From a virus: DNA of 21,919 bases. The stretch covers positions 1 through 21,919 of the IMG/VR virus record IMGVR_UViG_3300005664_000112; one strand, written 5' to 3'. The notes beneath the pieces were generated by a model, which made no database searches, was not told where the DNA came from, and saw only the letters and a list, made by a program, of their open reading frames with translations. Of the stretch, positions 678 to 10,757 are shown one piece after another. How positions within the stretch are numbered: position 1 is the first letter of the stretch; every line of letters starts with the position of its first letter. Both the position numbers and the translations under genes were made by a program.

Positions 678-2111
678 ATGAAAACCTTTCTCGAACAGGT
701 TGCGGCCCTGAAAGAAACCCGCGAAGCAAAAATGACCGAGATGAAGTCCATCGCGCAGAAATCCGTGGACGAATCCCGCTCAATGGATACGGCAGAGGCC
801 GAGTCTTTCGATACCATCGAAGGCGAAATCAAGCGTCTCGACTCTGATATTGCGCGCCTGAGCAAACTGGCTGAAATGGACAGACTGTCCGCAAAAGCCG
901 TTGATGATTCTGCTGACCGTAACAAATCGGTTGATGGCGGATACAAGTCGCCCCTGCAGGTCAAAACCAATGAGCAGCTGCCTCCCGGCATCGCCTTTGC
1001 TCGTTATGCCATGTGTTTGACGAAGGCAAAAGGCAACCACCAGCTGGCATTCCAGCTTGCTCAGAAGTTCTACCCGAACACTGAGAGCGTGGTGCGCACG
1101 CTGAAAGCCCAGGCTGAAGGTGCAAACCTCCAAGAAATGCTGCAGCTCAAGGCAACTGTCGCTGCCGGTACTTCGCTGGACAGCACTTGGGCAGCTCCCC
1201 TGGTTTACGCTCAGAACTTCATGGGCGACTTTATCAGCTACTTGCGCCCACGCACCTTGATCGGTCAAGCCAATTTCCGGCCTGTGCCCTTCAACGTGCG
1301 CATTGGTGGCCAAACCTCTGGCGGTACCGCTCAATGGGTAGGTCAGGGCAAAGCGAAACCAGTTACCAAGTTCGACTATACCTCGACCACGGTCCCATTC
1401 TCCAAGATCGCAGCTATTGCGGTAATCACTCAAGAGCTTGCCCGTTTCTCAGATCCGTCTGCTGAAGCTTTGGTACGTGACTCGCTTGCTGATTGCGTAA
1501 TCGAGCGCATTGATACCGATTTGTTTGACCCGGATCTGGCTGCCGTTTCTAACGTCTCGCCTGCATCCTTGTTGAACGGCGTTTCACCGGTTTCGGTGGT
1601 CGGCAACACGATCGACTATGCAGACCCCGCATCTGTCCGCGCTGCCATCGCTGCTTTGTGGGCCCCTTGGGATACCACTTACCTGGGTGCCCGCCCTGCG
1701 TATTACACCACCCCGGCAGTAGCTCGCCAGCTTTCATTGGCGCGTGAGGCGCTTGGAACACCGGCGTTCCCAGGCGTAACCCCGATGGGTGGCGTTCTGG
1801 ATGGTGTTCCCCTGCGTGTGTCTCAGTACCTGGCCAATAACGGCGGATCTGGCGGCGCGCCGTTCATCCTGGTTGATGAATCCGAGATCTATCTGGCTGA
1901 CGATGGCAGTGTGACGCTGGATGCATCTGATGTCGCATCGATCCAGATGGATGACGCACCCACCAACAGCTCCAGCGCCAGTGTGACTGCCACGTCGCTT
2001 GTCTCCATGTGGCAAACGAACAGCATCGCGTTCAGGGCTGAGCGGTTTATCTGGTGGGGCAAACGCCGTTCTGGCGCGGCTCAGTGGATTGACGGCTTCC
2101 CAACTTCTTGA
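678..2111 (+). CDS. HK97-fold major capsid protein with N-terminal delta domain
   Basis: This is the main head-shell protein (477 residues). Residues 1 to about 75 are charged and heptad-like (LEQVAALKETREAK, IEGEIKRLDSDIARLSKL), as in the delta scaffolding domain removed by the protease. The shell domain follows; the segment near residues 218-285 (AQWVGQGKAKPV, FSKIAAIAVITQELARFSDP, then a helix ending ERIDTDLF) is typical of the phage capsid family. Start ATG at 678 has GGAG at 666-669 with 8-nt spacing. An earlier ATG at 671 is in another frame. The cleavage site cannot be fixed by eye. A strong hairpin follows the stop codon. Confidence 0.95.
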   Translation: MKTFLEQVAALKETREAKMTEMKSIAQKSVDESRSMDTAEAESFDTIEGEIKRLDSDIARLSKLAEMDRLSAKAVDDSADRNKSVDGGYKSPLQVKTNEQLPPGIAFARYAMCLTKAKGNHQLAFQLAQKFYPNTESVVRTLKAQAEGANLQEMLQLKATVAAGTSLDSTWAAPLVYAQNFMGDFISYLRPRTLIGQANFRPVPFNVRIGGQTSGGTAQWVGQGKAKPVTKFDYTSTTVPFSKIAAIAVITQELARFSDPSAEALVRDSLADCVIERIDTDLFDPDLAAVSNVSPASLLNGVSPVSVVGNTIDYADPASVRAAIAALWAPWDTTYLGARPAYYTTPAVARQLSLAREALGTPAFPGVTPMGGVLDGVPLRVSQYLANNGGSGGAPFILVDESEIYLADDGSVTLDASDVASIQMDDAPTNSSSASVTATSLVSMWQTNSIAFRAERFIWWGKRRSGAAQWIDGFPTS

Positions 2112-2164: not shown

Positions 2165-2494
2165 ATGCTGATTGAAGTGATCAGAAACGGGCGGCGCCAG
2201 CGTGTGCACCCGAAGATTGGCCAGGTGCTTTTGTCGAAGCGCATTGCAAAAGAGATCAGCGGAGAGAGCGCTGAATCTGTTGCTGTGGTTGCTGATGTAA
2301 TTGTTGAAGTTTCGGCAGAATCCGATGTAGTTGAACAAGCAGCGCCTGTGGTAGCTGAACAAGTAGATGCCGATGAGCTTACCGGCATGGATAGAGCCGC
2401 TTTGCTATCTATGGCCGAAGAACTTGGGCTGAAGGTGCATGGCCGTTCAGGCGACGAGAAAATCCGCGAAATCATCCGCGAGCACATCAAGTGA
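2165..2494 (+). CDS. small protein with C-terminal HeH/LEM-like domain
   Basis: The 109-residue protein has a beta-like N-terminus (MLIEVIRNGRRQRVHPK), an acidic Val/Ala/Glu-rich linker, and a C-terminal helix-extended-loop-helix pattern (LTGMDRAALLSMAEELGLKV, then a loop and IREIIREHIK). That pattern resembles HeH/LEM/SAP-type domains found in small proteins of phage head gene clusters. Start ATG at 2165 is chosen because GGAG at 2156-2159 precedes it. An in-frame ATG at 2111 would touch the capsid stop but would place the 2125-2148 hairpin inside the gene. It overlaps the portal start as GTGA. A minor head role is inferred from position only. Confidence 0.75.
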   Translation: MLIEVIRNGRRQRVHPKIGQVLLSKRIAKEISGESAESVAVVADVIVEVSAESDVVEQAAPVVAEQVDADELTGMDRAALLSMAEELGLKVHGRSGDEKIREIIREHIK

Positions 2495-3873
2495 AAATAT
2501 TCGGCTTCGAAATTACACGCGCGCAAAAAGAGAAGGCGCTCAACACCGTCGCCGATCATCGCGGCGGCTGGCGTAGAATTCTGGAGCCATTTTCAGGCGC
2601 TTGGCAGGCAGGCGTCGAAGAGACGCGCGGTGATCTGATCACGTATCCGACGCTGTATGCATGCGTTTCCCGGATATCATCGGATATTGGAAAGTTGCCT
2701 TTTCTGTTGCGTAAGCGCACGGACTCGGGCACATGGGTAACAGAAAGTAATGCGGCCTATGAACCTGTCTTGAAGCGACCCAACAGCTACCAGACAGCAG
2801 CACAATTTCGCGAATATTGGGTGCTATCAAAACTCACCCAGGGCAATACATACGTTTTCAAGCGTCGGGACGCGCGCGGTGTGGTGCGTGAGCTTTATGT
2901 GCTCAACCCTGAGCGGGTAATGCCCATGGTCTCTGATGCTGGCAACGTGTACTACCAGCTGCAAACAGACGCCATCAACACACTCCCAGAAGGTTACCCT
3001 GCCGAGAATCTGGTAGTTCCTGCCAGCGAGATCATTCACGACAGATGCATGACTGTACACCATCCGCTGATCGGTGTTCCTCCTCTGGCGGCCGCGTACT
3101 GGCCAGCGCTCAAGAACATGAAGATCCTGCGCAACTCCACCAAGTTTTTTGCAAACAACGCGCAGCCTGGTGGACTGCTCACGGCGCCGGCCGGCATGAG
3201 TGAAAAAGATGCCGACAAGATCAAGAACTACTGGGACCAGAATTTCACAGGCGACAATTCCGGCAAGGTGGCAATCATCGGCGCCGATATGAAATTCACG
3301 TCTTTCGCTGTCCGTTCGATTGATTCGCAAATGGTTGAACAGATGCGGTACAGCGACGAACAAATCTGCCAGCCTTTCGGAATTCCCCCTTTCAAGGTCG
3401 GCATTGGATCTATCCCGGCTGGTCTGGGCGTTGATGGCCTGAATCAGCTGTATTACTCGGATGCGCTCCAAACGCACATTGAGCACATGGAGACCCTCCT
3501 CGAGGACGGCCTACGCATAACAGCCCCCTTGAGTATTGAGCTGGATCTCGAGCCACTGCTGAGAATGGACGAGGGCAAACGTGCCGATGTGGCAACCAAA
3601 CTGGTTGGTGGCGGCATCGAAACCCCGAATGAAGGCAGGGCCCGGTTTAATCGTCCTCCCCTTGATGGTGGCGATACGGTCTACATGCAGCAGCAAGATT
3701 TTCCACTTGATCAGGTTCGGATGAACAAGATCGAGCAGGCTGCACCCCCGCCACCACCTGCACAACAAACTCCGATCTCTGACGATGATCAAGATGCCAT
3801 TGATGAGGCAAAAACCATCGTGGCGACCCAGAAAGCAATCAAGGCCCTAACGGAGGCAGTCAGTGAAATTTGA
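2491..3873 (+). CDS. HK97-family portal protein
   Basis: The portal forms the dodecameric DNA gate at the head vertex and binds terminase and connectors. The 460-residue protein has the HK97/lambda-type features: YPTLYACVSRISSDIGKLPF (52-71), a WVLSKLTQGNTYVFKRRD region, VLNPERVMPM, the IIHD...PLIGVPPLAAA clip-adjacent segment, the helix KILRNSTKFFANNAQPGG, and RYSDEQICQPFGIPPFKVG. The C-terminus has a Pro-rich stretch (PPPPPA) and a helical tail. Start is GTG at 2491, overlapping the upstream stop. Its place after the protease and capsid genes is unusual, since HK97-like phages usually carry portal first. Length is normal and all core motifs are intact. Confidence 0.95.
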   Translation: MKIFGFEITRAQKEKALNTVADHRGGWRRILEPFSGAWQAGVEETRGDLITYPTLYACVSRISSDIGKLPFLLRKRTDSGTWVTESNAAYEPVLKRPNSYQTAAQFREYWVLSKLTQGNTYVFKRRDARGVVRELYVLNPERVMPMVSDAGNVYYQLQTDAINTLPEGYPAENLVVPASEIIHDRCMTVHHPLIGVPPLAAAYWPALKNMKILRNSTKFFANNAQPGGLLTAPAGMSEKDADKIKNYWDQNFTGDNSGKVAIIGADMKFTSFAVRSIDSQMVEQMRYSDEQICQPFGIPPFKVGIGSIPAGLGVDGLNQLYYSDALQTHIEHMETLLEDGLRITAPLSIELDLEPLLRMDEGKRADVATKLVGGGIETPNEGRARFNRPPLDGGDTVYMQQQDFPLDQVRMNKIEQAAPPPPPAQQTPISDDDQDAIDEAKTIVATQKAIKALTEAVSEI

Positions 3874-4645
3874 CCCTGAACAATTTGGGCGCGCAATGGG
3901 GGAAGCAATTTGCAAGGCTGTCGAGCCATTGAAAGCTCGGATCATCGAGTTGGAAAAACAGATCGCGGCTATGCCTCAGCCTGTTCATGGGAAAGATGGC
4001 GCCCCGGGCAAAGATGGCCAGAGTATCACCCTTGATGATGTTCGCCCTTTGATTGATGACGGCATCAAGCTGGTGATGGCCGAGGCCAGACAACAAATTG
4101 ATCTGGCGGTAAAAGCTATCCCTGTGCCGAAAGACGGTGCCCCTGGCAAAGATGGGGCCCCTGGCAAAGATGGGGCCCCGGGTGAAAAAGGCTCTGATGG
4201 CATTGGCATCGCTGACACGATCATCGATCGAGGCGGCAATTTGGTCGTCACATTGATGGATGGCAGGATGAAAAATCTCGGGCCTGTGGTTGGTGCTGAC
4301 GGGCGCGATGGCGCTGACTTCACAGAATTCACCATGGATTATGACGGAGAACGCAAAATCACGATCAAAGGCCGTGGTGGCGACTTCACCAAGCTGGTAC
4401 CGATCCCGCTTGATCGCGGCTACTGGCGCGAGGGAATGGCCTGCGAAAAAGGTGACATCCTCACCCACGATGGCAGCGCCTGGATTGCCCTGCGTGACAC
4501 CAAGTCAAAACCCGGCATTGAAAACAAAGAAGACTGGCGCCTGTTTGCCCGCAAAGGGCGAGATGGTGAGCGAGGCCCTAAAGGTGCCGATGGTACACCT
4601 GCAGCCCCCGTGAAACTCAAACCTGAAGGCGAGGGCGCCAAGTGA
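3863..4645 (+). CDS. collagen-like (Gly-X-Y) protein with carbohydrate-binding-like domain
   Basis: The 260-residue protein starts with a helical segment (residues 1-35, AMGEAICKAVEPLKARIIELEKQ) that could trimerise. Gly-X-Y tracts are interspersed: GKDGAPGKDG near 43-52, a run rich in GKDGAP near 91-112, GADGRDGAD, and GRDGERGPKGADG near the C-terminus. Between the last tracts lies a module with Trp/Gly/Asp spacing (YWREGMACEKGDILTHDGSA, W, then DWRLFARKGRDG) that resembles chitin-type CBM5/12 repeats of phage proteins. GTG at 3863 is supported by CGGAGG at 3851-3856; it overlaps the portal by 11 nt. By analogy it may be a head or connector-region fibre that binds glycans. Its location in the particle is inferred. 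Confidence 0.82.
   Translation: MKFDPEQFGRAMGEAICKAVEPLKARIIELEKQIAAMPQPVHGKDGAPGKDGQSITLDDVRPLIDDGIKLVMAEARQQIDLAVKAIPVPKDGAPGKDGAPGKDGAPGEKGSDGIGIADTIIDRGGNLVVTLMDGRMKNLGPVVGADGRDGADFTEFTMDYDGERKITIKGRGGDFTKLVPIPLDRGYWREGMACEKGDILTHDGSAWIALRDTKSKPGIENKEDWRLFARKGRDGERGPKGADGTPAAPVKLKPEGEGAK
4130..4183 (+). repeat. three tandem 18-bp units coding GKDGAP
   Basis: Three consecutive 18-bp units (4130-4147, 4148-4165, 4166-4183) begin AAAGA(C/T)GG and end near CCCCTGG or CCCCGGG. They encode repeated Lys-Asp-Gly-Ala-Pro-Gly. The second and third units differ only at the end. Near identity at the DNA level suggests recent slippage within the collagen-like gene and likely copy-number variation between relatives. 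Confidence 0.85.
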
Positions 4646-5037
4646 CTCAGCTCATCTCAATTGACGAAGCTCGAGACCATCTGCGCATCGACACTGACGC
4701 GGATGATCTTTGGCTTGATCTGTGGATCTCTGCAGTGAGTAGTGCCGTTCTCGCATGGCTGAAAGATGACTGGCGCGCTTATGAACCTGCTGTCGATTCG
4801 AATGGAGACGTACTTGAGGACAGTGCTGGTGACGAAATACCTGCCCTGGACCAGCTTGGAAACGCAACCCCCAAGCCGCAAGTGAAGGGCGCGGTGTTGA
4901 TAGAGATTGCTCAGCACTATCGTTTCAGGGATGGCTCTGGCGTTGCGGCGGTCCCCAGCCACTGGGGCTATGGATATACACTGGGGGTCGGTGCCACTGC
5001 ATTGCTGGCCTCGCTACGGAAAACCACGATCGTATGA
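4642..5037 (+). CDS. gp6-like head-tail connector protein
   Basis: The 131-residue protein begins TQLISIDEARDHLRIDTDADD, the typical opening of HK97 gp6-like adaptors, in which helices pack under the portal. It continues with a helical LDLWISAVSSAVLAWL segment and ends with KGAVLIEIAQHYRFRDG, also typical of the family. These adaptors form a ring below the portal. Start is GTG at 4642, overlapping the previous stop (GTGA). The gene ends in an ATGA overlap with the head-closure gene, so the two are probably translated together. Confidence 0.87.
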   Translation: MTQLISIDEARDHLRIDTDADDLWLDLWISAVSSAVLAWLKDDWRAYEPAVDSNGDVLEDSAGDEIPALDQLGNATPKPQVKGAVLIEIAQHYRFRDGSGVAAVPSHWGYGYTLGVGATALLASLRKTTIV

Positions 5038-5390
5038 GCATCGAGGCCGGACGTCTGCGCCACCGGGTGAGGATTCAACGCCAGATCCAGACCCAGAACA
5101 CAACTACAGGGCAGGTCACAGTTGCATGGCAAACAGTGGCTACTGTGTGGGCAGATATACAGCCGCTCAGCGCCCGTGAATTCATCCAATCCCAGACTCT
5201 TCAGGCGCAGATTGTTGCCAGAATAGTCATCAGGCACCGGGATGGCATCGATACCTCAATGCGTCTGGTGCATACAAGGTTGAACCGTACCGATGTCATA
5301 TACAACATCCAAGGCATTCTCCCTGACGCAGATGGCGGCATGGAATATCTGACAATGCCGTGCAGCACAGGCGTAAATGACGGGCAATGA
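5034..5390 (+). CDS. head closure protein (phage head-tail joining family)
   Basis: This 118-residue protein seals the DNA-filled head and provides the tail docking face. Its sequence opens with EAGRLRHRVRIQRQIQTQN, continues through a VWADIQPLSAREF segment, and has the IVIRHRDGIDTSMRLVH strand pattern and YNIQGILPD. All match the SPP1 gp16/HK97 gp7-like beta-barrel family. ATG at 5034 overlaps the connector stop as ATGA. In related phages the next gene would be gp10-like. Here six sugar-related genes come first. Confidence 0.9.
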   Translation: MSIEAGRLRHRVRIQRQIQTQNTTTGQVTVAWQTVATVWADIQPLSAREFIQSQTLQAQIVARIVIRHRDGIDTSMRLVHTRLNRTDVIYNIQGILPDADGGMEYLTMPCSTGVNDGQ

Positions 5391-5905
5391 TTGCTGTCGT
5401 TATGGCAACGGGGCCAAGTTTGACGGCGGATGCCGTTGATTCAATTCGCGGAAAATGCACAGCAATTGTTGTTTCTGATGCTTATCGCCTGGCGCCATGG
5501 GCTGACGCCCTCGTTTCTGCTGATGCAGCATGGTGGAAGGCCAATCCAGATGCCATGGGTTTTGCAGGCATAAAGCTTGGGCTGCTGCACGATTTTCAGG
5601 GCGTCAAAGGCGTGGAGAAGATGACGGCAGCAAGCGGAACCAACTCTGGGCTGCTCGGTATTATGGCTGCAGTGCAGTTGGGAGCCAAAAGAATCCTGCT
5701 GCTGGGTTTTGATCTGCATTCCCCGGGCGATCATTTCTTCGGAAAGCATCCGTTGCCACTCAAATCCACGCCCCCCGGGCGGATGGACGTTTTCAAAAAG
5801 CAATTCGCGAATTACAGGCCGCGCGGCGTCGAAATTATCAATTGCACGCCAGGCACTGCACTCCACTGCTATCCGAAGGACGCCATTGAAAACTGTCTGG
5901 CTTAA
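5387..5905 (+). CDS. Rossmann-like DUF115/Cst-type putative glycosyltransferase
   Basis: The 172-residue protein starts with a beta strand and a GPSL loop (IAVVMATGPSL, residues 2-12). It later has NSGLLGIMAAVQLGAKRILL (86-105) followed by GFD. This layout matches DUF115/MptE-like proteins and Campylobacter Cst sialyltransferase-like folds, where GPSL contacts the nucleotide part of the donor. HFFGKHP near 116-122 may be an active-site loop. It is shorter than DUF115 proteins of flagellar systems. ATG at 5387 overlaps the head-closure stop (ATGA), so it is translationally tied to the head genes. Donor and acceptor are unknown. It opens the six-gene sugar block. Confidence 0.65.
   Translation: MIAVVMATGPSLTADAVDSIRGKCTAIVVSDAYRLAPWADALVSADAAWWKANPDAMGFAGIKLGLLHDFQGVKGVEKMTAASGTNSGLLGIMAAVQLGAKRILLLGFDLHSPGDHFFGKHPLPLKSTPPGRMDVFKKQFANYRPRGVEIINCTPGTALHCYPKDAIENCLA
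5875..5888 (+). promoter_or_regulatory. Shine-Dalgarno and TTG start of the second sugar gene
   Basis: GAAGGA (5875-5880) lies 5 nt before TTG at 5886-5888. The reading frame from this TTG gives MKTVWLNLRH, a natural beta-strand opening. The in-frame ATG at 5709 would put about 60 implausible residues on the front, fully overlapping the previous gene. This decides the start. Confidence 0.65.
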
Positions 5906-6599
5906 TCTGCGCCACTGTTCTGGCGATCGTGCTGACGCGTTTAAAAAAGGACTACTCCGACATGGATACAAAGTTGTATTTGGGATCCCAGGCGGCATAC
6001 CCAGCGACGATGATGTGTTCGTCACCTGGAACCGGATTCGTATTGGCGATCAGATAGCACAGAAATTCCGGCATGTGATCGTTGCCGAAAATGCGACGTG
6101 GGGAAACGATTTCGCCGGCCAGTCTTGGCTACATCTTGCCCGCGATCATCACAACTCTGCCGGCAAATTTCCGGTTGGCGCCACCGACAGGTGGGACGCT
6201 CTCGGAGTTGATCTGCTGCCGTTCAGGACCACAGGCGAAACTGTGATTATTGCCCAGCGTGGAATCGGGAGCGCACCAACTGCAATGCCAATGCACTGGC
6301 CTGAGCGCGCGCTCAAGCGCCATGGCGGGCGCATCCGGCGACACCCTGGCATATCGGGCGGAATTTCTCTTGACGATGACCTGAGCAGCTGCGGGCTGGT
6401 TGTGACGTGGGGCAGCGGGGCAGCGGTGAAGGCTCTGATGATGGGCATTCCGGTAATCAGCGAAATGCCAAATTGGATAGCCGCACAAAACAATACCGTG
6501 TCAGGCCGCCTTGAGATGTTCAGGCGGTTGGCATGGGCGCAATGGACAATCACTGAGATCTCAAATGGACAGCCTTTTGCGCGCCTCCTCTCTCTCTGA
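5886..6599 (+). CDS. putative GT-B-like glycosyltransferase (paralogue of the gene at 7915)
   Basis: The 237-residue protein, read from TTG at 5886, has an opening strand (MKTVWLNLRH), a DDDVFVTWNR segment near 41-50, and IIAQRGIGS near 121-129. A C-terminal donor-site-like region contains CGLVVTWGSGAAVKALMMG (169-187), IPV (188-190), and RLEMFRRLAWAQWT (208-221). The same C-terminal signature recurs in the gene at 7915, so the two are paralogues. The pattern 'strand, Ser/Gly loop, small-residue helix, GIPV' is common in GT-B and capsule-synthesis (KpsS/C-like) proteins. It is small for a full GT-B enzyme. It overlaps the previous gene by 20 nt. Enzyme activity is inferred. Confidence 0.6.
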   Translation: MKTVWLNLRHCSGDRADAFKKGLLRHGYKVVFGIPGGIPSDDDVFVTWNRIRIGDQIAQKFRHVIVAENATWGNDFAGQSWLHLARDHHNSAGKFPVGATDRWDALGVDLLPFRTTGETVIIAQRGIGSAPTAMPMHWPERALKRHGGRIRRHPGISGGISLDDDLSSCGLVVTWGSGAAVKALMMGIPVISEMPNWIAAQNNTVSGRLEMFRRLAWAQWTITEISNGQPFARLLSL

Positions 6600-7104
6600 A
6601 TTTGAGAGGAAATTTGTCAGGCCAAATGCAGGCCGGACACTGATCGTCGGATCCAAGATATACCAGGGCAAAGAGGATCGGCGCCAGAGATACGCGGATG
6701 CAGTAGGCATCGATATGTTAGAGGGAGATGGCGTCGATATCGTTCTTGATCTCGAGGAAGAGCTGCCTAGCAGTATTGGTAAGTTTGCACATGTTGAGTG
6801 CATGAGCGTATTGGAACATTCGCGGCGTCCATGGTTGATGGCTGAAAACATTCAGAAATTGATGCTGCCCGACGCAACGATCTTTTTGTCCGTCCCGTTT
6901 ATTTGGCGAATTCACGCATACCCAAGTGACTATTTCCGCATCACGCCTGCCGGGATTTCCAGCCTATTCACGGGGATCGATTGGCGGCATCTGATGCTTG
7001 CGGCTGATGATCTGCGCACGGGTCCGTCAGTCCATAGCACGACCATCGCCGGACACCCATATATGGCCAGGACAGAATCAGTTGGCTTTGGTGTGCGTCT
7101 GTGA
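6565..7104 (+). CDS. SAM-dependent methyltransferase (class I, type 11-like)
   Basis: The 179-residue protein has a class I methyltransferase layout: a degenerate motif I (RTLIVGS, residues 24-30), the acidic strand end GIDMLEGDGVDIVLDLEE (48-65), motif IV-like VECMSVLEHS (77-86), then IQKLMLPDATIFLSVPF and the HAYPSDYFRITPAGI segment common in Methyltransf_11 proteins of polysaccharide clusters. ATG at 6565 gives this clean opening with a weak GAG 7 nt upstream. An in-frame ATG at 6511 would add residues that look like an out-of-frame reading of the previous gene. It likely methylates a sugar or glycan intermediate made by its neighbours; the substrate is inferred from context. Confidence 0.78.
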   Translation: MDSLLRASSLSEFERKFVRPNAGRTLIVGSKIYQGKEDRRQRYADAVGIDMLEGDGVDIVLDLEEELPSSIGKFAHVECMSVLEHSRRPWLMAENIQKLMLPDATIFLSVPFIWRIHAYPSDYFRITPAGISSLFTGIDWRHLMLAADDLRTGPSVHSTTIAGHPYMARTESVGFGVRL

Positions 7105-7925
7105 AAGTGCTCTTTACCGGACGCGGTACCAGCGGTAGCTGGCAGATTCGCGGCGTGCAGCTTGGTGAAGCCCTGGGCGCTGATGTGCAGCCGATGGTGA
7201 GTAAAACTTCCGCTGATGTCGTGATCGCGGTGAAGCGAATTCCGGACCAGCTACTCAGGGCCATCAGGGGCAGCTTTGTTGTTTGGGATGTCGTCGATGC
7301 ATGGCCACAGCCCCATGGTAATGACTGGACTGAGGGCGCTTGCAAGGCATGGCTCGATGCCGAGTTCGCCAGGATCAGACCCAATGCCATCATCGCCGCC
7401 ACGCAACAAATGGCAAATGACTGCGCCCATTTTGGTGTGCCGGTTTTGTGGTTGCCGCATCATCATCGCCCTGACATAGAGCTGAATCCTATTCGAGACC
7501 GGATCCTGAAAATTGGGTATGAGGGGGCCGCGAATTACATTGCACCGTGGTTGCCTGCTATCCAATCAGAATGCCAGCGAATTGGCGCAGAGTTTGTGCT
7601 CAGTCCCCGCTCACTTGCTGATCTCGATATCGTCCTCGCGTTGAGAGGCTCCTCAGGATACGCGCCGCGCAATTGGAAATCCGGTGTCAAGCTGGCCAAT
7701 GCTCAGGGCAGCGCGACCCCGTGGGTTGGCTGCCGAGAAGCTGGTTACATCGAAACAGCATCTGGTGGCGAAGAATGGGCAGACACCGTTGGCGAGCTGG
7801 CTGCAGCAATTCGTTTGTTTCAAGAATGGGAAGCGCGCGCGGTGGCCTCTGAAGCGTTGCGGACGCGGGCGTTTACGGTCGAAAAGGCTGCGGCGGAATT
7901 GCGCGGGTTTTTGAATGGATTGTGA
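7101..7925 (+). CDS. putative GT-B glycosyltransferase
   Basis: The 274-residue protein begins KVLFTGRGTSGSWQIRGVQLG, a GT-B-style N-terminal strand and loop. DVVIAVKRIPDQLLRA and VVWDVVDAWPQP follow, then AATQQMANDCAHFGVPVLWL. The C-terminal half contains SPRSLADLDIVLALR and WKSGVKLANAQGSATPWVG, ending near REAGYIE. The 'K-x-A-N-A-x-G-x-P' block resembles the donor-binding loop of GT4-like enzymes that read a nucleotide-sugar. The C-terminus is an alpha-helical tail. GTG at 7101 overlaps the methyltransferase stop (GTGA). No signal peptide or membrane segment is visible, so it is probably cytosolic. Confidence 0.68.
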   Translation: MKVLFTGRGTSGSWQIRGVQLGEALGADVQPMVSKTSADVVIAVKRIPDQLLRAIRGSFVVWDVVDAWPQPHGNDWTEGACKAWLDAEFARIRPNAIIAATQQMANDCAHFGVPVLWLPHHHRPDIELNPIRDRILKIGYEGAANYIAPWLPAIQSECQRIGAEFVLSPRSLADLDIVLALRGSSGYAPRNWKSGVKLANAQGSATPWVGCREAGYIETASGGEEWADTVGELAAAIRLFQEWEARAVASEALRTRAFTVEKAAAELRGFLNGL

Positions 7926-8706
7926 GGTCATTCTCCAGCCAAGAACGTCGCGGCGTGGCGAGAAGATATTGCGCGCAATGGTCGAGACAGCGACGCCAGC
8001 TGGCGTGTCTGTCTATCTATCCAGTGAATGGAAAGGCCGCTCAGAATGGCTCATGAGCTACGGATTGGGCCACGTTGGGCGTAGACCATGGATCAACGAT
8101 CACCTGCGTGCTGGTGGCCACCTTATAGGATGGGATCTCGGTTATTGGGGCCGTGACACCCCAGTGAACTTCAGCATGCGCCTGACAATCGATGCTGATC
8201 ATCCACACCGTTTAATCAAGACAATGCCACCTGAACGCTTTGATAACGCCGGTATCAACCTGCGCAATGATGCGGATTCAGCTGGGCCAATTATCTTGGT
8301 AGGCCAAGGCCGCAAGCAGCGGAAATTCATTGGCAGTGGGGGGCCAGACTGGGAAACCAAGAAGCTGGCTGACCTCCGCGTTCGCTATCCAGGTAAAAAA
8401 ATCCTCTATCGGCCGAAGGTGCCAGGCGAGTCTCTACGGAGCTGCAAAAACGCATCCGGCAGTATTGAGCAGGCAATCGAGGGGGCTTCACTCGTCGTCT
8501 GCAGTCACTCGAATGTGGCAGTGGATGCATGCATTGCAGGAATTCCAGTCGAGTGTGAAGACGGCGCGGCATACGCGTTGTACAAAAACAATCATGCACC
8601 CACCACTGAACAGCGCCTGGAATTTCTTCGCGCTCTTGCGTGGTGGCAGTGGACTCCATGTGAGTCGCTGCAGGCATGGAAACACATCATCGGAGTTCTT
8701 TCATGA
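7915..8706 (+). CDS. putative capsule-synthesis-like glycosyltransferase (paralogue of the gene at 5886)
   Basis: The 263-residue protein contains AGGHLIGWDLGYWGRD near 66-81, PIILVGQGRKQRKFIG near 125-140, GKKILYRPKVPG, and a C-terminal region with SLVVCSHSNVAVDACIAGIP (192-211), V and E, then RLEFLRALAWWQWT (234-247). The 'SHSNVAVDA...GIPV' loop resembles the donor-site end of KpsC/S and related capsule transferases. The final block matches the 5886 product almost residue by residue (LE, R, LAW, QWT). It overlaps the previous gene by 11 nt and the next by ATGA. Transferase activity is inferred from fold resemblance; a sugar-binding, non-catalytic role is possible. Confidence 0.62.
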   Translation: MDCEVILQPRTSRRGEKILRAMVETATPAGVSVYLSSEWKGRSEWLMSYGLGHVGRRPWINDHLRAGGHLIGWDLGYWGRDTPVNFSMRLTIDADHPHRLIKTMPPERFDNAGINLRNDADSAGPIILVGQGRKQRKFIGSGGPDWETKKLADLRVRYPGKKILYRPKVPGESLRSCKNASGSIEQAIEGASLVVCSHSNVAVDACIAGIPVECEDGAAYALYKNNHAPTTEQRLEFLRALAWWQWTPCESLQAWKHIIGVLS

Positions 8707-9359
8707 TCAAATTGTTCTGCGGATATGATGCACGCGAAGCTGTCGGGTTTCATGTTTTCGTGTCATCGGTTCTAACGCGGACAAGTAGGCCACTATCCAT
8801 CATCCCTCTCGCGTTAAATGGATTGCCTACAGGGAGCAACAATTTCACGCTCTCGCGTTTTCTGGTTCCGTATTTGATGGGATATAAGGGCCACGCAATC
8901 TTTGCTGATGCCGCTGATATGTTGGCGTTGGCTGATATCGAAGAATTGGATTCGTTATTCGATCCATCGTATGCGGTGCAGGTCGTCAAGCGGCCCGATT
9001 ATGAGAGCAGGCATGCGCGCAAATACATTGGTACGCCACTGGAGTGTAGCCAGAGCAACTATCACCGCAAAAACTGGGCGAGTCTGATGATCATCAATTG
9101 TGAGCATCACGCATGGCAGTGGGTGAATCCTGTGAGCATCGCAAACACAAGCCCCCTCTACCTTCTGCAGCTAAGTTTTTGCGGTGATGCAATTGGTGAG
9201 CTGCCACCCCGCTGGAATGTGCTTGCTGATGAAGGCGATGATATCGAGGAGGCTGCGATTCTGCATTGGACTGCCGGCATCCCGGCCATCCAGTACTATG
9301 CGGATGCGCCAGCTGCTAGTGCTTGGCTTGATGAAGCTGTCGACATGCTGAGGATCTGA
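8703..9359 (+). CDS. GT8-like GT-A glycosyltransferase
   Basis: The 218-residue protein opens IKLFCGYDAREAVGFHVFV, typical of phage and bacterial GT8-like enzymes, and continues FTLSRFLVPYLMGYKGHAIF. The metal-site region is FADAADMLALADIEEL, with D69 and D72 in a DxxD arrangement, close to the DxD-type site of GT-A enzymes. Conserved HRKNWASLMIIN and HWTAGIPA blocks follow. ATG at 8703 overlaps the previous stop (ATGA) and has GGAG at 8692-8695 with 7-nt spacing; an upstream in-frame ATG at 8676 lacks that support. It ends the sugar block, one nt before the gp10-like gene. Donor and acceptor are unknown. Confidence 0.8.
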   Translation: MIKLFCGYDAREAVGFHVFVSSVLTRTSRPLSIIPLALNGLPTGSNNFTLSRFLVPYLMGYKGHAIFADAADMLALADIEELDSLFDPSYAVQVVKRPDYESRHARKYIGTPLECSQSNYHRKNWASLMIINCEHHAWQWVNPVSIANTSPLYLLQLSFCGDAIGELPPRWNVLADEGDDIEEAAILHWTAGIPAIQYYADAPAASAWLDEAVDMLRI

Positions 9360-9360
9360 A

Positions 9361-9816
9361 ATGGATTCAGTGACGTTCAAGCTCAGCGGCATTGATGATT
9401 TGGTTATCAAGCTGCGGAATGCGAATAATGAAACCAAGTACAAGGGTGGTCGATCGGCTCTCAGAAAAGCAGCAAACCTTGTTGCAATTCAAGCACGAAA
9501 AAATGCAAAACAACTCGATGATCCGGATACTGGCCGTAGCATAGCGCGTAACGTCGCTCTGCGTTGGAACGGTCGGTTGTTTAAGCGCACAGGGGATATC
9601 GGATTCAGAGTAGGGATACGGCACGGTGCCGTGTTGAGCAAAGATCCTGAAACGGGCGTCAATGCGCCAACACCTCACTGGCGTTTACTTGAGTTTGGCA
9701 CTGAGAAGATGCAGGCCCGGCCATTTTTCCGTCGAGCGCTGTCAGAGCGAGTCGATGACGTGATATCCAAGTTTGCTGCCGAATACACCGAAGAACTCAG
9801 CAAGGCGATTGAATAA
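9361..9816 (+). CDS. HK97 gp10-like head-tail completion protein
   Basis: The 151-residue protein has the HK97-gp10 family pattern: a start with KLSGIDDLVIKLRN, the basic helix GGRSALRKAANLVAIQARKN, a central beta region, then HWRLLEFGTEKMQARPFFRR and a C-terminal helix. The 'LEFGT...ARPF' motif is the most diagnostic. Proteins of this family help finish the neck or tail terminator end of siphophage tails. ATG at 9361 has TGAGGA at 9349-9354. The stop codon TAA shares its last A with the next ATG. The sugar block has separated it from the head-closure gene. Confidence 0.88.
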   Translation: MDSVTFKLSGIDDLVIKLRNANNETKYKGGRSALRKAANLVAIQARKNAKQLDDPDTGRSIARNVALRWNGRLFKRTGDIGFRVGIRHGAVLSKDPETGVNAPTPHWRLLEFGTEKMQARPFFRRALSERVDDVISKFAAEYTEELSKAIE

Positions 9817-10181: not shown

Positions 10182-10200
10182 AACCGAGCACCACCACCAG

Positions 10201-10222
10201 CCCGCCATGTGCGGGTTTTTTT
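10201..10222 (+). terminator. terminator-like hairpin before the tail tube gene
   Basis: CCCGC (10201-10205) and GCGGG (10211-10215) form a 5-bp stem with a CATGT loop, followed by seven T at 10216-10222. It lies between the tail completion gene and the tail tube gene, a placement like the hairpin before the capsid. No promoter motif is evident in 10182-10247. Confidence 0.72.
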
Positions 10223-10247
10223 ATGCCTGCAATTCAGGAGACATGCT

Positions 10248-10757
10248 ATGTCAATTTTGACTCAAGGCACCCAGCTGTTTGTCATCGATCCCGCATATGA
10301 CAGCAACGGCGCGGGCGTCCGTGAAATCGAGTGCATTACCTCTTTCAATCCCGGTGGCAACCCTGCGGATCAAATCGAGGATACCTGCCTCTCAGCTACG
10401 ACTCGCAGCTATCGCCCCGGCCTGCGCACTCCTGGCCAGGCCACTGGGACGCTCAACGCTGACCCCAACAACCAGAGCCACTTGCGCCTTTATGAATTCA
10501 GCGAATCGGACCCGTCTCCGGTGCTTGATTTCGTTATCGGCTGGTCTGATGGCCCTCTGGACGTGAACAACAACCCCACGGCGCTGCCTACTCTCGATGG
10601 CAGCGACGAGTTTGTGTTGCCGACCACTAGAACTTGGTATCGCTTTAGTGGCTATGTATCGGACTTCCCGTTCGATTTCACGGCCAACACTGTCGTGACC
10701 ACCAACTTCACGATTCAGCGCTCTGGCCGTGGTTACTGGATCCAGAGGGCTGTTTAA
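10248..10757 (+). CDS. major tail tube protein
   Basis: The 169-residue protein is the likely tail tube subunit. It has [14 protein letters not shown] at the start, [20 protein letters not shown] and [20 protein letters not shown], and beta-rich C-terminal segments ([28 protein letters not shown]), all typical of lambda gpV-like tail tube families. ATG at 10248 is chosen because AGGAG at 10236-10240 is 7 nt upstream; an in-frame ATG at 10223, or 10209 farther back, would read through the terminator-like hairpin. Its place before the chaperone pair is the standard tail order. Confidence 0.9.

Follow-up and report, generated by a model that had tools for sequence, protein, structure and literature searches.

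A recurrent cassette of predicted glycosyltransferases and methyltransferases in siphophage virion operons, with a probable role in virion glycosylation

Why does a set of putative sugar-modifying enzymes lie between two neck genes of a tailed phage? This question is raised by the 21,919-nt virus record IMGVR_UViG_3300005664_000112 (hereafter, the window), which was read as the virion operon of an HK97-like siphophage. Six genes, S1 to S6, encoding putative glycosyltransferases (GTs) and a methyltransferase are inserted between the head closure gene (Hc1) and an HK97 gp10-like gene. The block is a recurrent cassette in which S1 is the constant gene. From what the computation shows (the genes, their folds, their place in the virion operon, their recurrence, the swapping of interior genes and the fusion of S1 to fibres), we infer with a probability of about 0.62 that the cassette glycosylates a virion protein in the cytoplasm, with S1 starting a chain that is variably extended and methyl-capped using host donors. 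The cassette and its flanks are as follows.

5034..5390, plus strand: head closure protein Hc1, left flank (phrog_25, 1.9e-33)
5387..5905, plus strand: S1, DUF115/MptE-like, GT42 (Cst)-like putative initiating transferase
5886..6599, plus strand: S2, GT-B-like putative transferase, homologue of S5
6565..7104, plus strand: S3, predicted S-adenosylmethionine-dependent methyltransferase, optional cassette member
7101..7925, plus strand: S4, predicted GT4-type GT-B glycosyltransferase
7915..8706, plus strand: S5, predicted GT-B transferase with the fold of the beta-Kdo (3-deoxy-D-manno-oct-2-ulosonic acid) transferases KpsC/WbbB
8703..9359, plus strand: S6, GT8-like putative GT-A glycosyltransferase
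9361..9816, plus strand: HK97 gp10-like tail completion/Neck1 protein, right flank (phrog_5, 2.8e-18)

The coordinates of the open reading frames (ORFs) confirm what the first-pass annotation, made from the letters of the window, had described: six genes at this place, overlapping one another and the left neighbour. From Hc1/S1 through S5/S6 the overlaps are 4, 20, 35, 4, 11 and 4 nt, and S6 is separated from gp10 by a 1-nt gap. S2 probably starts at a TTG codon behind AAGGA, a start backed by alignment of related loci. Each of the six has homologues in many contigs, and the ratio of nonsynonymous to synonymous substitution rates (dN/dS) between cassette genes of close relatives is mostly 0.05-0.2, indicating purifying selection; S1 to S6 are therefore real genes. 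Also upheld is the earlier statement that the block belongs to the virion operon and that no separate promoter is visible for it. No promoter-like sites were found on the plus strand between 4600 and 10300, and terminator-like sites in this interval are at chance level (5 found versus 4.4 expected). The nearest credible terminator, a stem-loop with a T run at 10199-10217, lies 3' of the tail terminator gene and separates it from the tail tube gene, suggesting that co-transcription of the cassette may be mainly with head and neck genes. As had been proposed, the block makes no nucleotide sugars, genes for their synthesis being absent from the window. None of the window proteins has a 19-residue hydrophobic peak above 1.6 or a Pfam match to a flippase or bactoprenol transferase.

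Profile and structure comparisons bore out the enzyme identities that had been assigned from the letters (DUF115/Cst-like S1, related S2 and S5, methyltransferase S3, GT-B S4 and GT8-like S6). S1 matches phrog_4603, labelled 'alpha-2,3-sialyltransferase' (3.3e-33). Pfam MptE-like is matched by 11 of 14 S1 family members (best 1.2e-6) and competes with the GT42 label, for which a PDB profile search gave a weak match to Cst-II (E 0.028). The S2 and S5 families are homologous (hhalign probability 97.8, E 1.1e-12), and S2 homologues occur in 12 aligned related loci and in Caulobacter phages. S3 matches Methyltransf_23 weakly (E 0.016), and its family profile matches UbiG structures (E 1.5e-4). PDB sequence profiles gave no significant match for S2, S4, S5 or S6, and the AlphaFold models of S4 (pLDDT 96) and S5 (pLDDT 93) were compared by Foldseek. 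The S4 model matched SdgB first (E 9.7e-9), followed by SenB and GtfC, with TMq values of 0.6-0.7. SdgB glycosylates SD-repeat proteins. The best PDB matches of S5 were WbbB (2.6e-7), KpsC (3.8e-7) and KrkA, with E-values of about 1e-7 to 1e-6 and a TMq of 0.51-0.56 against WbbB/KpsC; its matches among viral proteins include a protein of phage CcrColossus. By these models, S4 and S5 have glycosyltransferase folds. KpsC (GT107) and WbbB (GT99) use Kdo activated with cytidine monophosphate (CMP). S5 differs from them in sequence (identity 10-18%), and none of 14 S5 family members matches the capsule-synthesis Pfam family. The invariant S5 residues D74, H96-P97, K168 and H198-S-N (in A1) are candidates for a catalytic or CMP-Kdo pocket. 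Pfam Glyco_transf_8 is matched by 6 of 14 S6 family members (best E 0.002), S6 matches phrog_28018 (3.2e-26), and its relatives in phages are annotated 'nucleotide-diphospho-sugar transferase'. The S6 clade of the window (8703-9359) has a DxxD-type pattern (FADAADML), and other clades have DxD (FVDCDML). As a rule, the S2 to S7 families lack transmembrane-like segments; S7 is a second methyltransferase (Methyltransf_11) present in most relatives and absent from the window.

The cassette is an insertion between neighbours that otherwise abut, as the first-pass annotation had held. In six portal groups without any S gene (e.g., L109, L118, L124, L143) the gap between Hc1 and gp10 is zero or negative, and in Stenotrophomonas phage SOVA965 these genes overlap by 4 nt. 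The same block was found at this locus in relatives. About 90 viral loci were retrieved with S5 and S4 as queries (a first search gave 20; in another, 112 were confirmed and 80 kept, with some contigs counted twice). A profile-based gene map showed the order S1-S2-(S3)-S4-S5-S7-S6 in most of them. Of the 49 portal groups in which both flanks could be seen, 30 carry at least three of S2, S4, S5 and S6. Across dozens of viral contigs, the cassette occupies at least three sites in virion operons: between Hc1 and gp10, between a capsid or collagen gene and the connector, and between the tail tube and tape measure genes (e.g., L025, L036, L045). In nine portal groups, Hc1 and gp10 abut and a full cassette lies elsewhere. 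S1 is present in all 32 portal groups with a slot longer than 600 nt, one of which (L100) has a doubtful right flank. Reduced slots in portal relatives hold S1 either by itself or together with a GT2-type protein, with other methyltransferases or with S2. At the DNA level, similarity of the window to known phages is confined to two weak matches, both in the collagen/connector region.

The interior genes of the cassette are clearly exchanged between phages. Among 22 complete loci, the divergence of S1 tracks that of Hc1 (rho 0.79) and the tail terminator (rho 0.69), whereas the divergence of S4, S5 and S7 correlates poorly with that of virion genes (rho 0.05 to 0.33). In the close pairs L013/L020, L081/L082 and L077/L076, S7 is much more diverged than its neighbours.

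Fusions of S1 to fibre-like sequences tie it to the virion surface. The following ORFs begin with an S1 domain (residues 1-170) and continue in frame into collagen repeats, a PKD domain and a C-terminal region that is lectin-like.

L052:4206-5930: S1-collagen-PKD-lectin-like fusion
L057:6887-8782: the same architecture; C-terminal region laminin-G/ConA-like by Pfam
L059:3058-4854: the same architecture
L061:2116-4035: the same architecture
L064:3487-5382: the same architecture

Further S1 fusions are present in L111 and, truncated, in L121, giving a total of five to seven contigs. The S1 homologue of Pseudomonas phage PAJU2, ORF010 (L170:5962-6531), carries the deposited label 'structural protein', as do the capsid protein ORF003 and ORF015. 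The fusions and the PAJU2 label are the strongest pointers from the enzymes to the virion.

We propose the following pathway. The six enzymes would be co-produced with the proteins of the head and neck, and the glycan would be built in the cytoplasm. The first sugar is most likely added by S1, to a virion protein located at or close to the head or neck. Chain extension with nucleotide sugars from the host would then fall to S2, S4, S5 and S6; S5, and perhaps S1, could plausibly draw on a CMP-activated ulosonate, for example CMP-Kdo, as donor. S3, and S7 in relatives, would methylate the chain. The outcome would be particles with a short, methyl-capped glycan whose outer part differs between phages because the interior genes are swapped, and its purpose may be to mask or alter the virion surface. 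A broader version is tentative: an S1-anchored glycan island, widespread in Gram-negative siphophages, with S1 sometimes borne on the particle within a fibre, and with a virion glycan started by S1 from a host CMP-ulosonate and given O-antigen-like variation by swappable transferases, methyltransferases and a 2-oxoglutarate (2OG) oxygenase.

Related arrangements occur in cultured phages. The slot of Pseudomonas phages D3, PMG1 and PAJU2 (S1, orf12, orf13) has an S1 homologue in the same Hc1-gp10 neighbourhood, but orf12 (GT-like) and orf13 (methyltransferase) match no S2 to S7 profile. In D3 and PMG1, S1 lies 3' of the capsid gene (in D3, 5' of the connector), and the GT-like protein and methyltransferase are encoded directly 5' of gp10. 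The D3 O-antigen polymerase gene wzy(beta) lies elsewhere in the genome on the opposite strand, which supports a virion role for the cassette; lipopolysaccharide (LPS) conversion by D3 has been reviewed (PMC11436027). In Caulobacter phage CcrBL9, the block gp527-522 separates a tail gene from the endolysin and encodes S1, S2, an S2/S5-like protein, S6, a methyltransferase and a GT9; CcrColossus gp126-131 form a similar block. These Bertelyvirus and Colossusvirus blocks (L172, L185) share S1-S2-(S2/S5-like)-S6 plus a methyltransferase and GT9 with the cassette; they differ in belonging to jumbo phages, in their site between tail and lysis genes and in having no detected S4. That S1-S2-S6 is retained at such a site likewise supports a virion role. 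The whole cassette is also present in a prophage of Variovorax sp. JS1663 (L093), which was the only hit of a bacterial genome search with S5 (1 of 101); a contig scan with the S5 alignment found none in bacteria. S4 was found in 3 of 201 family genomes, including one weak match. Apart from the prophage, S4 and S5 are thus very rare in bacteria. In Burkholderiales chromosomes, L094-L096 carry S4 outside an evident phage context.

Several points weigh against virion glycosylation. The glycan is presumed, and the enzyme activities, donor, acceptor, order of addition and purpose are what we infer. Adjacency could explain part of the correlation between S1 and Hc1, and no experiment behind the PAJU2 label could be traced. 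Among S1 ORFs, 37% exceed a hydropathy of 1.6, many of these having extended starts. When unlabelled ORFs were clustered to look for a further acceptor gene conserved in the cassette, the only clusters were of structural genes, an HNH-like family and the 2OG oxygenase. Cassette and collagen-like protein are not significantly associated among portal groups (18/12 versus 7/12, Fisher p = 0.15). The likeness of S5 and S2 to capsule and LPS enzymes, together with the envelope-type genes near the bacterial S4 of L095 and the ABC transporter, lipid A acyltransferase and ELM1-like gene adjoining that of L096, makes a lipid-linked host glycan possible.

These likenesses feed the main rival, in which the target is a host envelope glycan (LPS core or capsule precursor), altered late in infection so that superinfection is blocked or progeny no longer re-adsorb to debris. 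D3 alters the LPS of its host, but with other genes that are kept apart from its S1 slot. In the lineages sampled, the block is embedded among virion genes, which would be late for exclusion; it has no flippase or membrane transferase, in which it also differs from Gtr-type seroconversion cassettes, and its S1 can be fused to a virion-type fibre. We therefore regard envelope modification as unlikely, though as the most serious competitor. The same fusions, the PAJU2 deposit and the co-divergence with Hc1 would also fit an S1 that is mainly structural, a GT-fold scaffold bearing fibres, with the other enzymes decorating S1 or its fibre alone. The S1 motifs GPS, NSG, GxD and two His are kept in the fused forms, as expected of an enzyme; most S1 proteins have no fibre, and jumbo and other phages carry S1 in other contexts as well. 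This explanation is accordingly improbable. Phages use glycosyltransferases on modified bases, and the cassette might in principle serve sugar hypermodification of DNA. Its location among virion genes, and folds nearest to protein, small-molecule or polysaccharide transferases, make this very remote. The cassette loci examined are not near replication or nucleotide genes, with one exception: at L021:7729-11838, S4, S5, a GT8-like gene and a GT/FkbM-like protein lie near replication/terminase-like genes and not in a virion operon.

For virion glycosylation, which we favour, the window offers the following further proteins, including candidate acceptors.

678..2111, plus strand: major capsid protein, candidate acceptor (Pfam Phage_capsid 5.6e-10)
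2491..3873, plus strand: portal protein (phrog_2271 1.1e-93)
3863..4645, plus strand: collagen-like protein, 3' of the portal gene, possible acceptor (Pfam Collagen E 4.7e-4; phrog_1289 4.8e-16)
10245..10757, plus strand: tail tube protein, candidate acceptor (Pfam Phage_TTP_11 1.3e-63)

The first-pass annotation had named the collagen-like protein, beside capsid and tail, as a possible target; a specific link to the collagen-like protein is not supported. Glycosylation directed to this protein, as in collagen/exosporium-type systems, would suit the collagen-like gene upstream of the cassette in the window and in many relatives. It would also suit a 2OG-Fe(II) oxygenase (Pfam 2.5e-17) encoded between S5 and S7 in six loci (e.g., L062:11552-12250, L048:3269-3964), which suggests a possible hydroxylation step there. 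In addition to the non-significant association, collagen-bearing phages with an empty slot exist (L109, L124, L125), cassettes in L006, L010, L017 and L090 have no detectable collagen-like protein, and the oxygenase-bearing L062 has no GXY run of 6. As a general rule, the collagen-like protein was thus rejected as the dedicated acceptor, and we consider this reading highly improbable. Two further collagen-like proteins, besides the g04 homologue, are encoded 3' of the portal gene at L015:3109-5009 and L020:3774-5698.

How new is such a cassette? The suggestion that the set is undescribed agrees with our search of the available literature, in which no description of it was met; the phiCbK genome paper does not discuss the Caulobacter block, PMC4936722 (Pseudomonas AH14a) has nothing on S1, and PMC12772287 goes no further than naming a sialyltransferase-like gene in phage TayeBlu. 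As a kind it is not new, because phage-encoded virion glycosylation is known in mycobacteriophages. Glycosylation of the capsid and tail tube there provides the precedent (PMC12363180, PMC11256854), including Che8, Corndog and Myrna (Freeman et al. 2023, as cited in those two papers). Both cases would involve phage-encoded glycosyltransferases acting on virion proteins, shown for mycobacteriophages and proposed here. The present system differs in combining four to five putative transferases and one or two methyltransferases in one head/neck-operon cassette of Gram-negative siphophages. No Mycobacterium phage was among the matches listed by tblastn of S2, S4, S5 and S6 against 50,697 phage records, a negative that rests on this listing and not on direct comparison with Che8 or Corndog proteins. 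Such homology would not be essential for a system of this kind. A functional analogy may be drawn with chlorovirus PBCV-1, in which soluble viral glycosyltransferases and a sugar methyltransferase build the capsid glycan (PMC7019647); that virus is eukaryotic, and no homology is claimed. Virion glycosylation as such is known, and the novelty of the cassette is conditional on a glycan being found. Virion glycosylation has been shown in few phages, mainly mycobacteriophages. If the proposal is correct, the conserved, modular head/neck-operon cassette of many Gram-negative phages, with its reduced versions in the cultured D3-type Pseudomonas phages and Caulobacter jumbo phages, would make virion glycosylation a general, testable feature. 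This would bear on the surface chemistry of phages, on adsorption and on immune recognition, and a PHROG family labelled only as sialyltransferase would gain a function. As a minor observation, the tail genes at L033:16263-19900 are apparently inverted relative to the head genes, by either an inversion or an assembly artefact.

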